DNA from: Dehalococcoidia bacterium
Lineage (GTDB): Bacteria; Chloroflexota; Dehalococcoidia; Dehalococcoidales; UBA5760
Direction of reading: 5' to 3'
NCBI GenBank assembly: GCA_011176655.1
Contig: DUEB01000174.1
Location: forward strand, 1 to 11,394
Length of the DNA stretch: 11,394 bases
A program made the position numbers and the translations under genes. The notes beneath the pieces are model-generated. The model saw only the letters and a list, made by a program, of their open reading frames with translations, was not told where the DNA came from and ran no database searches. Position 1 is the stretch's first letter. Each line of letters starts with the position of its first letter. Shown here piece after piece: positions 5,571-8,920 of the stretch.

Positions 5571-5644
5571 TTAAAACTCCTGGTTAAGATATTGCCTGGG
5601 AGTTGGTTTAAAACTCCTGGTTAAGATATTGCCTGGGAGTTGGT
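5571..5644. repeat. Two exact 37-bp tandem repeats with internal dyad
   Basis: Positions 5571-5607 and 5608-5644 are identical, and the first six bases of a third copy follow at 5645-5650. Each unit contains an inverted repeat (AACTCC...GGAGTT, extended inside by GG/CC and outside by TTAAA/TTTAA). Transcribed on the minus strand, each unit would form an imperfect hairpin in the leader of the radical SAM gene. The rest of the 5533-5694 spacer holds a ribosome binding site at its 5' end on the plus strand and a possible -10 box at 5663-5668. Confidence 0.95.
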
Positions 5645-5662
5645 TTAAAAACCCCGAGGCTT

Positions 5663-6527: not shown

Positions 6528-6556
6528 TTGCCATCGGGGGTGCTTTCGGGTATGAT
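6528..6556 (+). promoter_or_regulatory. Sigma70-type promoter for the leader RNA
   Basis: TTGCCA (6528-6533) and TATGAT (6551-6556) are separated by exactly 17 bases, close to the housekeeping consensus. The start of transcription would be about 6563. This places a leader of about 260 nt, with an intrinsic terminator, in front of the gene starting at 6826. Confidence 0.65.
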
Positions 6557-6612
6557 ATCCGGTGGCGAGTAAAGCCGGGTATTATTACCGCGGAGGAAAG
6601 GAGGTGAGAGCT

Positions 6613-6738
6613 GTGCTCTGGATAGTGCGCCTTAACCTAGCTAGTATCTGAGACCAGAGATGCGGCACAGGGTCTGTGCCGGTCCGGCTCGAAGACCTCC
6701 GCCCCCTCTTCGGAGAGGTTACCTGGTTAGCCCCGTGA
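6613..6738 (+). CDS. Short leader ORF with internal UGA; possible 41-residue selenoprotein
   Basis: GTG 6613 is preceded by the near-perfect Shine-Dalgarno AAAGGAGGTGAG (6597-6608). Translation gives 12 residues, MLWIVRLNLASI, up to a UGA at 6649-6651. If this UGA were read as selenocysteine, the frame would continue with DQRCGTGSVPV and on to a second UGA at 6736-6738, giving 41 residues with a U-X3-C pair. The hairpin at 6664-6680 is placed as a bacterial SECIS would be. Without readthrough this is a 12-residue leader peptide ending at 6651. The open stretch after the UGA is too short to be significant by itself in GC-rich DNA. The start codon sits in the AGAGC/GCTCT hairpin. The Shine-Dalgarno could also be a chance part of a folded riboswitch. 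No family is recognised. Confidence 0.35.
6664..6680 (+). promoter_or_regulatory. bSECIS-like hairpin
   Basis: The 17 bases GGCACAGGGTCTGTGCC form a seven-pair stem with apical GGT. From memory, the E. coli fdhF SelB-binding hairpin is also 17 nt, GGTTGCAGGTCTGCACC. The two share GG at the 5' end, GGTCTG at positions 8-13 and CC at the 3' end. The gap from the UGA (ending 6651) to the loop GGT is 19 nt, against 18 in fdhF. The bulged U of the fdhF element is missing here, since the stem pairs fully. A chance hairpin, or a helix of another riboswitch class, remains possible. Confidence 0.4.
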
Positions 6739-6766
6739 CCTATACTGGGTTTCGTTAAGCCGATTT

Positions 6767-6807
6767 AAGCGGTGGTGCGGAGTTCTTCGGCCACCGCTTA
6801 TTTTTTT
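6767..6807 (+). terminator. Intrinsic terminator of the leader RNA
   Basis: AAGCGGTGG (6767-6775) pairs perfectly with CCACCGCTT (6791-6799) around a 15-nt loop. It is followed by ATTTTTTT (6800-6807). It lies 18 bases before the ATG at 6826, between promoter and gene, which is the usual place for an attenuator. If it is not conditional, the leader is a free-standing short transcript. Confidence 0.85.
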
Positions 6808-6825: not shown

Positions 6826-7410
6826 ATGAATGAAGGTGCTATGGGGTCTGTTAGTAGTAATCCGGAAGCGCCGTTTGAGGGTGGGGGCCTGGTGCTTTTC
6901 TCGGTGGTGCGTCAGGCACTGGAGGCCGACCGGGTTCTTCGGGAAGTGGGGTACAGGGTCAGGCTGGTTGCCCCGCCGGCGCAGTTACGTAAGGGCTGTG
7001 ATTTAGCCGTGGAGGTAAATCTGGCGGAGAAGCCCGGCATCGAGCGGCGTCTTGGGCAGGAAGGGATTAGCTACCTCAGCCTTGAGCCGCTTAAGACGGG
7101 GACGTCGCCGCTTCTGGAAATCGTGACGGTTGCTGATTTCGATAGCTGGCTCATGGTCAGGGCGGGCAATATGAAGCTCACCTTCGATAAGGAAAGCGGC
7201 CAGATTGTCAACACCTCCGGCGGCGGCTGCCCCGATATCCCATATCTCCACGCCGAGCTGGTGGGCCGGTCGCTCACTGAGGCGCCGCGGCCCCGGGACA
7301 CAGGCTTTACCCTCTGTGCCCTGATGCTGGAGCGGGCTCTGGAAGAGGGGCTCGGTATCTGGAAAGGAGACGTGTGCCATGATGCTCATTGCCGGCACGA
7401 TTCCGATTAA
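6826..7410 (+). CDS. DUF3343-like protein with C-terminal extension (putative Se/S carrier)
   Basis: Residues 19-90 match the DUF3343 pattern: a hydrophobic strand GLVLFSVVRQALEADRVL, then YRVRLVAPPAQL and a cysteine (KGCDLAVEV) where the family has its conserved Cys. DUF3343 proteins are small putative selenium/sulfur carriers. Comparative genomics links them to selenium used as a cofactor in molybdenum hydroxylases. Here about 100 extra residues follow, including a conserved-looking SGGGCPDIPYL and PRPRDTGFTLCALMLERALEEG, which I cannot assign. The total is 194 residues. The start ATG 6826 has AAGGG about ten bases upstream. The gene sits behind the leader and terminator, and its last 32 bases overlap the next gene, indicating coupled translation. 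YedF two genes downstream supports the selenium role. Confidence 0.65.
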   Translation: MNEGAMGSVSSNPEAPFEGGGLVLFSVVRQALEADRVLREVGYRVRLVAPPAQLRKGCDLAVEVNLAEKPGIERRLGQEGISYLSLEPLKTGTSPLLEIVTVADFDSWLMVRAGNMKLTFDKESGQIVNTSGGGCPDIPYLHAELVGRSLTEAPRPRDTGFTLCALMLERALEEGLGIWKGDVCHDAHCRHDSD

Positions 7411-8269
7411 GGGCTTACCGCTGGTCGTGGGTAGGGTCGGGGTGGAGGGGGAGGCTCTGGTTATCGGCGGCTACCGTATCCCTGGCACTCAGGGGACGGC
7501 GGCTATGACCAGCGCCGCTTGCCTGACCAGCGACTATCTCCGGCTTGCCTCGCCCCAGGCGGTGGTGGCCGGGGACATCGGCGAGGGCGGGGGCAGCCGG
7601 GAGATATACGAGTATCTTATCCAGAATGTGGCCAGCCTTTGCCCCACGGTGCTGGCGCTACACTACTGCCTGCCGGATATGGCCCTGATGCGGAGATTGT
7701 GCCAGGCGGTCAAGGACTGCCGGCGAAGGCCGCTCCTGATAGCCGATGCCGGTTCCATGTACGCCGCCAAGGCCGCTGGACTGGCCCCCGAGTTTGACGT
7801 TTTCACCCCGGATGCCGCCGAGCTTGCCTTTCTGGCTGACCAGGAGGCTACCCACCCGGCTTATGTTAATCGTCATCTATTTTGTGCCGATATTAGCCGG
7901 GCCCCGGCACTGATAATAGATTCTTATCGCCAGCGCAGTGCCCCCCGGCTGTTACTGGTTAAGGGGGCCATTGACTATATCGCCCGCGATGGGGATATCG
8001 TGGCTACCGTCACCGAGCCCGACGTTCCTGAGCTTGAGGCTATCGGCGGCACCGGCGATACCATCACCGGGCTCCTTACAGCTTTTGCTGATGCCGGTCT
8101 TGAGCTGGCCGAGGCGGCGCTGATTGCGGCTAAGGCGAACCGCACGGCAGGGAAATTTGCCCGGGCGACTCCAGCCACTAGGGTCAGTCAGATTATCAGC
8201 CAGTTTCCCGCTGTGTTCGGGGAGTATCTTGGTCGCTGGAGCCAGGGCTGTGCCCTAAGGAGGGTCTAG
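7379..8269 (+). CDS. Ribokinase-superfamily protein, NAD(P)H-hydrate dehydratase-like
   Basis: This 296-residue protein resembles the YjeF C-terminal/ADP-dependent NAD(P)H-hydrate dehydratase branch of the ribokinase fold. The visible signature is GGTGDTITG (about residues 224-232), which supplies the anion hole and catalytic Asp. Upstream is FTPDAAEL, where the family usually has TPN/TPH..E. Residues 60-135 form the central Rossmann part (VVAGDIGEGGGSREIYEYL, PLLIADAGSMYAAK). The N-terminus is shorter than in bifunctional Nnr, and the epimerase domain is absent. Being locked between DUF3343 and YedF, it may act on something other than damaged NAD(P)H, such as a step in cofactor modification; that is inference. 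The start ATG 7379 has AAAGGAGA at 7363-7370. The C-terminal residues SQGCALRRV are encoded in the first unit of a tandem duplication. Confidence 0.75.
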   Translation: MMLIAGTIPIKGLPLVVGRVGVEGEALVIGGYRIPGTQGTAAMTSAACLTSDYLRLASPQAVVAGDIGEGGGSREIYEYLIQNVASLCPTVLALHYCLPDMALMRRLCQAVKDCRRRPLLIADAGSMYAAKAAGLAPEFDVFTPDAAELAFLADQEATHPAYVNRHLFCADISRAPALIIDSYRQRSAPRLLLVKGAIDYIARDGDIVATVTEPDVPELEAIGGTGDTITGLLTAFADAGLELAEAALIAAKANRTAGKFARATPATRVSQIISQFPAVFGEYLGRWSQGCALRRV

Positions 8270-8347: not shown

Positions 8348-8920
8348 ATGAGTGAAATTGACGCCCGTGGGCTTCCCTGCCCGCAGCCGGTTATCAAGAC
8401 CAAGAAGGCGCTGGAAGAAATAGAGACGGGGCAGGTCACCATCCTGGTTGACAGCCCGGAGAGCCGCGAGAACGTGCGGCGTTTTGCTCAGAGCCAGGGC
8501 TGCCAGGTAGCGGTGAGGGAGGAGGGTGGGACAATCTTTCTGGATGTCACCAAGGGGATTTCGTGTGAAATCGGGCCCAAGCAGAGCGGTGATGTCATTC
8601 TCATCACCAGCGACCGGCTGGGTAGCGGGGATGAGAGGCTGGGGGAAATCCTGATGAACGCCTTCTTAAATACCCTCTGGGACTACGCGCCGAAGCCCGC
8701 TAAGCTGCTCTTTATCAATAACGGAGTCCGGCTGACCACCGAAGGCTCTGAGGTTCTGGAGACCTTAAAGCTGCTGGAGAAGGAGGGGGTTCAGGTATTT
8801 TCCTGCGGCACCTGTTTGGAGTATTATAATCTTAAAGAGAGGCTGGGGGTGGGGTCGGTGAGTGATATGTATGCTACGGTGGATGCCCTGCTGTCAGCCA
8901 CCAAGGTCATCAAGGTTTGA
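8348..8920 (+). CDS. yedF: YedF-type selenium metabolism protein (TusA/SirA plus DsrE-like domain)
   Basis: Residues 1-70 form a TusA/SirA domain with the CPxP motif at Cys11 (GLPCPQPVIKTKKALEE). Residues 80-190 form a DsrE-like domain (VILITSDRLGSGDERLGEILMNAF, LLFINNGVRLTTEGS) ending with Cys153 and Cys156 in FSCGTCLEYY. This two-domain layout and 190-residue length match TIGR03527 (selenium_YedF), found in bacteria with selD and linked to labile-selenium molybdenum hydroxylases. It probably carries persulfide or perselenide on cysteine. ATG 8348 is the start, because AAAGGAGGT (8332-8340) lies seven bases upstream. A GTG at 8339 in the same frame falls inside that ribosome binding site. 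It follows the DUF3343 and kinase-like genes on the same strand. selD, yqeB and yqeC are not in the window. Confidence 0.92.
   Translation: MSEIDARGLPCPQPVIKTKKALEEIETGQVTILVDSPESRENVRRFAQSQGCQVAVREEGGTIFLDVTKGISCEIGPKQSGDVILITSDRLGSGDERLGEILMNAFLNTLWDYAPKPAKLLFINNGVRLTTEGSEVLETLKLLEKEGVQVFSCGTCLEYYNLKERLGVGSVSDMYATVDALLSATKVIKV

Follow-up and report, generated by a model that had tools for sequence, protein, structure and literature searches.

Transcription attenuators of the trp, his and phe type combine a short translated leader, mutually exclusive helices and an intrinsic terminator, and it is the position of the ribosome that serves as the signal. A SECIS-like element was reportedly found by Thanbichler and Boeck in 2002 in the leader of E. 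coli selAB. The hairpin of the E. coli fdhF gene is GGUUGCAGGUCUGCACC, placed 11 nt after its UGA. The model of the bacterial SECIS (bSECIS) given in PMC13188914 has a small apical loop with a G, 16-37 nt from the UGA, on a stable stem, and bacterial SECIS elements are also treated in PMC1088965 and PMC10778597. In PMC5322559, the cellular regulation of selenium supply is called not fully understood, comparative genomics is used to propose yedE, yedF and DUF3343 as selenium genes, and a 2-hydroxyglutaryl-CoA dehydratase subunit and an activase are tabulated beside them. A leader of the kind reported here was not described in any title or abstract opening of the literature searched, from which subscription journals mostly lie outside, and the text of PMC13188914 gave no match for 'leader', 'attenuat' or 'riboswitch'.

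The window, by which we mean the whole stretch of 11,394 nucleotides that was analysed, carries a structured leader in front of a selenium operon, with the following parts:

6528 to 6556, forward strand: promoter-like hexamers TTGCCA and TATGAT, 17 nt apart (10 of 12 consensus matches)
6575 to 6726, forward strand: structured leader core, closed by the outer helix CCGGGUA/UACCUGG (computed fold)
6597 to 6607, forward strand: Shine-Dalgarno AAAGGAGGTGA (read in the sequence)
6606 to 6613, forward strand: GA and the 5′ strand of helix P2, running into the start codon (fold and helix count)
6613 to 6651, forward strand: leader ORF, with GTG at 6613-6615, 11 further codons and UGA at 6649-6651
6664 to 6680, forward strand: bSECIS-type hairpin GGCACAGGGUCUGUGCC, 17 nt (GGCACAG-GGT-CTGTGCC), its apical GGT starting 19 nt past the UGA
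6687 to 6700, forward strand: 3′ strand GCUCGAAGACCUCC, whose predicted partner is either the P2/P1 5′ strand or the terminator loop (fold and pairing tests)
6736 to 6738, forward strand: UGA at which a ribosome passing 6649 in the same frame would next stop, 35 nt beyond the 3′ strand
6765 to 6807, forward strand: intrinsic terminator with a T7 tail (folds at 6765-6800, -21 kcal/mol, then seven T)
6778 to 6792, forward strand: segment CGGAGUUCUUCGGCC of the terminator loop, a candidate antiterminator partner by its complementarity to the 3′ strand
6826 to 7410, forward strand: DUF3343 / Se_S_carrier gene (PF11823)
7379 to 8269, forward strand: kinase-fold gene of the YjeF C-terminal type (PF01256; TIGR00196 below its cut-off)
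8348 to 8920, forward strand: yedF (TIGR03527, 226.6 bits)

Much of this had been proposed in a sequence-only reading of the same DNA, which took the locus for a possible tiny selenoprotein or UGA-plus-SECIS leader, perhaps a selenium sensor, ahead of a selenium operon. The Shine-Dalgarno, the GTG opening a 12-codon ORF, and the hairpin with apical GGU can be read in the sequence as it said; the readthrough frame of 41 residues with a U-X3-C motif is present, ending at UGA 6736-6738; the hexamers and the folded terminator agree with its claim of an independent transcript; and DUF3343 and yedF do follow, with the kinase-fold gene in between. It missed the helix that hides the Shine-Dalgarno and start, as well as the second way of pairing, with the loop of the terminator; together these would give the sensor a mechanism. 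Its leader half is supported, as a possible sensor, and its selenoprotein half is not, as described below. To our knowledge the kinase-fold gene has no clear role in selenium metabolism.

The computed fold of the window pairs the Shine-Dalgarno and start with GCUCGAAGACCUCC at 6687-6700, with GGAGGU (6600-6605) as the 5′ strand of helix P1, a helix that was counted in 24 leaders. Positions 6575-6810 fold more stably than shuffled sequence (z -3.1), and the leader core alone is unremarkable (z -1.5). The terminator was missed by a simple scan and found by folding. Counting both strands, the window has 357 TGA triplets, and as 24 of them pass a loose bSECIS rule, the locus as a single sequence is suggestive and not decisive. 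Several other identities were rejected: selC, tmRNA and other known RNAs on the strength of ARAGORN and Rfam, neither of which returned a match for the window (Rfam covariance models up to E 5), and a mobile element, there being no plasmid or phage match and a single leader copy in the window's own genome. Elsewhere in the window, a repeat of about 37 nt (ctcctggttaagatattgcctgggagttggttt) occurs twice in tandem at 5573-5648, between a radical SAM gene and a metallo-hydrolase gene.

A BLAST search with the DNA of the element alone, run on 61 and on 156 genomes, found no complete relative and matched just the promoter half in the congener G006. The first relatives were low-scoring nhmmer or BLAST matches among fetched loci, afterwards confirmed by model: L092 (E 0.0014), L037 (E 0.0074), L028 (E 0.22) and L038, which was picked up through its terminator (0.001). 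These weak matches gave leaders before yedF (L028, L037, L038) and before yedE (L087, L092). A covariance model, R1, built from L028, L037, L087 and L092 with the window left out, finds the window at 54.3 bits (E 2e-9), matching its core at 6593-6705. Of 393 genomes searched in the class, R1 matched 20, and one of these was discarded. A second model, built from 24 leaders, was run on 400 genomes of the phylum and matched 12, including two from outside the class; a model search of 29 genomes from the class of those two gave no further leaders. The final set comprises 30 leaders including the window, from 28 genomes and 18 genera, all Chloroflexota. Conservation in related genomes, which the sequence-only reading had left to be sought, is thus found, and on these comparisons the leader is a member of a conserved RNA family, whose conservation lifts the window's copy above chance.

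As far as these searches went, the leader is confined to Chloroflexota, and the models gave nothing convincing at yedE/DUF3343 operon loci from other phyla. Two weak matches were rejected: L125 (E 0.19), where the sequence was read and lacks the features, and L188 (G459, E 0.005), which by eye apparently lies inside coding sequence and has no leader features. L087 and L092 are duplicates of the L172 and L173 leaders and were not counted, and L183 is the window itself. In all 30 leaders the start codon and the 3′ strand were chosen by eye. Rfam searches of nine member loci returned a sole match, a tRNA elsewhere in L189. The window is among the more divergent members, with GGGU where most have GGUN. 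Its promoter-like region is also kept in the congener G006, which has both flanking halves (promoter and terminator) without the leader core, and the congener G003 has a different sequence upstream. At the G006 locus (L055, 677-875) the DUF3343 and kinase genes are absent and yedF directly follows the leader remnant.

The leaders carry a coding signature up to the UGA. All 30 leaders have a start codon just 3′ of the Shine-Dalgarno (27 ATG, 3 GTG), and in 30/30 the first in-frame stop is UGA, never UAA or UAG, so the substitution that would have counted against the sequence-only reading does not occur. The ORF has 10 codons in 24 of the 30; the remaining leaders have 6, 7, 8, 9, 11 and 12 codons, one each, and since these are all whole codons the six departures keep the frame. 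UGA-N3-UGA is present in 16/30. Beyond the UGA, the same frame meets no stop before the 3′ strand ends in 29/30 leaders, whereas this holds for the other two frames in 15/30 and 21/30, and the next stop falls 11-44 nt past the 3′ strand in those 29; L191 has a UAG before its hairpin. The gap between UGA and hairpin varies irrespective of frame, so that three frames occur relative to the conserved fold, and because the hairpin's frame relative to the UGA is not kept, selection could be acting on continued reading as such instead of on a peptide. The post-UGA frame is in this sense conserved as open and not as protein.

The hairpin itself resembles a bSECIS in each respect of the model. The distance from UGA to apical triplet is 19-33 nt in 30/30 leaders, inside the published 16-37; a G in the first two apical positions occurs in 28/30; and the minimum free energy (MFE) is -7.5 kcal/mol or lower in 25/30. 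The window, with 19 nt, apical GGU and -13.6 kcal/mol, conforms on all three counts. Under a stricter continuous-stem rule the hairpin passes in 22/30. The consensus is GGYGCAGGUNCUGCRCC, and the hairpins of L191, L192 and L198 are degenerate. By spacing, apical G and MFE we regard the element as a bSECIS-type hairpin and as a putative element for SelB binding and Sec insertion.

In all leaders a helix joins the Shine-Dalgarno/start strand to a GCUCGAAGACCUCC-like strand. Across 24 leaders, 94.5% of the cells in the helices are paired and 16 of 24 pairs have changed on both sides, in an alignment that was fitted to the covariance model; none of 500 shuffles reaches the observed pairing, and slid versions reach 40-48%. 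The 3′ strand has a second complement, in the apical part or loop of the downstream terminator, as UCGAAGAACCUC with GAGGUUCUUCGA in L182 and UCAAAGAGCC with GGCUCUUUGA in L179. This second pairing favours the leader's own terminator: 3′ strands pair with their own downstream region at a mean of -15.5 kcal/mol and with those of other leaders at -12.6 (0/20000 permutations, all 30 leaders), and with one leader per genus the values are -16.8 and -13.9 (0/20000 permutations). The permutation test was first made with 21 of the 30 leaders and repeated on these two sets. Single leaders are uneven, and only 12/24 beat at least 190 of 200 shuffled downstream regions while the other 12 do not.

When the start strand up to the UGA was masked, as if under ribosomes, the terminator partner took at least 5 pairs in 21/24 leaders. 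Without masking, when the RNA ends after the partner, the start strand prevails in just 12/24, about as often as the partner, and in the window the partner already wins, with 10.1 versus 1.2 expected pairs; a switch that is off by default would therefore need co-transcriptional folding. The terminator rule is passed by 26/30 leaders, of which L173, L191 and L198 were discounted, and the window's terminator stands at -21.0 kcal/mol with T7. By eye, L171-L173, L176, L191 and L192 lack a convincing terminator, and these may act otherwise. The elements of an attenuator are present: a leader ORF that would be translated (judged by comparison only), a terminator before the first gene, and an antiterminator that excludes the helix at the start.

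Selenocysteine machinery accompanies the leader. The window genome is 80% complete in 222 contigs and has selA and most of selB together on one 3259-base contig, in keeping with the sequence-only reading, but selC (tRNA-Sec) was not found over the cut-off in that genome. Its selB runs off the end of the contig, and in the congeners G003 and G006 selC lies within about 125 bases of the selB 3′ end, which is the position where the window genome's selB contig ends. Both congeners have a selD with a UGA in frame, within GAGUASK or a similar motif, so the genus decodes Sec. For Dehalogenimonas alkenigignens, PMC4918011 records selC, a Sec-containing selD and fdh. Over the set, selA passes the cut-off in 27/28 leader-bearing genomes versus 3/25 leader-negative ones, 8 of which were already known from an earlier selA survey to lack selA; with all genomes of that survey removed, the counts are 23/24 versus 3/17. 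The sole exception, G419, is 72% complete. The converse fails, as the leader was found in only 4 of the 16 survey genomes with selA over the cut-off (G000, G011, G012, G022), and most selA-bearing genomes near the window are without it, including G003 and G006.

The genes that follow the leader also point to selenium. The first gene is DUF3343 in the window, yedF in three leaders (L028, L037, L038), and yedE in L171-L173, where the tested member, L172, matches TIGR04112 at 472 bits. A double-cubane reductase (NF040772) was identified by family search after L174, L184 and L186, the L184 copy being broken, and by N-terminal likeness in other leaders. Searches identified an ArsP_1 permease after L178 and L179; an OsmC protein follows L176 and an Fe-S/CCG protein L191. 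In 11 genomes (G012, G022, G034, G070, G080, G096, G104, G110, G116, G122, G127) yedF lies about 1.5-2.8 kb further on, on the same strand. The place of the reductase gene behind the leader and, in many genomes, ahead of yedF suggests that the enzyme has a role in selenium handling. Three side observations concern these loci. The ArsP_1 permeases of L178 and L179 are weakly like SaoE, below the cut-off; G388 and G299 have second, degenerate leader copies (L191, L192, around 1501-1620) before the Fe-S/CCG-domain protein; and in other Dehalococcoidia, as in some other phyla, a DUF3343 gene comes after the apparent 3′ end of yedE (loci L077, L078, L080-L095 and more).

Based on these comparisons, we think it probable that the leader works in cis as a transcription attenuator and that what it senses is the decoding of selenocysteine. 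We hypothesize that the leader ORF is translated up to the UGA, which SelB and Sec-tRNA-Sec would decode with the aid of the adjacent bSECIS hairpin. When Sec-tRNA is scarce, a ribosome would wait at the UGA and keep the Shine-Dalgarno/start strand out of P1/P2, and a ribosome queued at the start would also hold that strand open; the 10-codon spacing would fit a second ribosome at the start behind the stalled one. The freed 3′ strand would then pair with the nascent terminator loop, letting RNA polymerase enter the DUF3343-kinase-yedF operon. With Sec plentiful, a readthrough ribosome would cross the 3′ strand and stop just beyond, the terminator would fold, and the operon would be off. Insertion of Sec at the leader UGA and translation as the driver of the switch are what we infer from the conserved parts; the direction of control is the weakest step, and the opposite sign is possible. 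With slightly less assurance, though still on the side of probability, we propose a dedicated class of Sec attenuators in which Sec would be inserted as a measurement and not for a selenoprotein. The gauge would be one UGA or UGA-N3-UGA, and the operons under its control those for taking up and handling selenium in Chloroflexota.

The alternative that survives best is that binding of SelB and Sec-tRNA to the hairpin blocks the leader or changes its shape without any decoding, much as reported for the SECIS-like element of E. coli selAB, the UGA ORF being incidental. A good bSECIS-type hairpin and a selB gene in the genome speak for this, but we consider it unlikely, as it leaves unexplained the fixed start codon, UGA as first stop in 30/30, ORF lengths that change by threes, and a frame open past the 3′ strand. 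The same coding signals, together with the tie to selA, stand against a metabolite or ion riboswitch with a terminator, in which the ORF would arise incidentally from a conserved GGUGAGAGC/GCUCGAAG motif resembling a kink-turn; conserved helices and motif, a downstream terminator and an alternative pairing would suit such a switch, yet no Rfam family matches the leader in the window or in the nine member loci, and we judge this very unlikely. An ordinary translated leader, where UGA is merely a stop and the timing of termination or release sets the switch, would account for the strong signs of translation; UGA in 30/30 over 18 genera, UGA-N3-UGA in 16/30 and a hairpin at Sec spacing would go unexplained, and we allow it only a slim chance. 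The tiny selenoprotein, a functional 41-residue U-X3-C product of readthrough, has next to nothing in its favour beyond the open frame in the window and in 29/30 leaders, since the post-UGA sequence falls in three frames relative to the fold, the readthrough peptides neither align nor share sequence across the set, U-X3-C is local to the window, and the marks of a bacterial selenoprotein gene (a conserved protein on both sides of the UGA, with Cys homologues) were not found.

If the Sec-sensing attenuator is real, a bacterium would be using recoding itself as a sensor, and attenuation would extend to the 21st amino acid. It would offer a direct view of how the cellular supply of selenium is regulated, flag selenium-handling genes (the double-cubane reductase, the ArsP-type permease and the DUF3343-kinase-yedF set), and provide a compact genetic read-out of Sec decoding.

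Set beside known systems, the leader shares with terminator riboswitches a conserved fold and an alternative pairing to the terminator, and differs from metabolite riboswitches in its coding signature up to the UGA and its dependence on Sec machinery genes. Like the bSECIS of selenoprotein genes, its hairpin has a small apical loop with a G, a spacing of 16-37 nt and a stable stem, but it sits in a leader with no conserved protein after it. The E. coli selAB leader likewise has a SelB-type hairpin in the 5′ leader of selenium genes, whereas here there are also an ORF with an in-frame UGA, a terminator and a co-varying antiterminator. The nearest likeness is to the trp, his and phe attenuators, with which it has in common a short leader ORF, exclusive helices, a terminator before the operon and ribosome position as the proposed signal; in place of their run of sense codons it carries one UGA or UGA-N3-UGA with a SECIS hairpin, and the start strand itself forms one arm of the switch.
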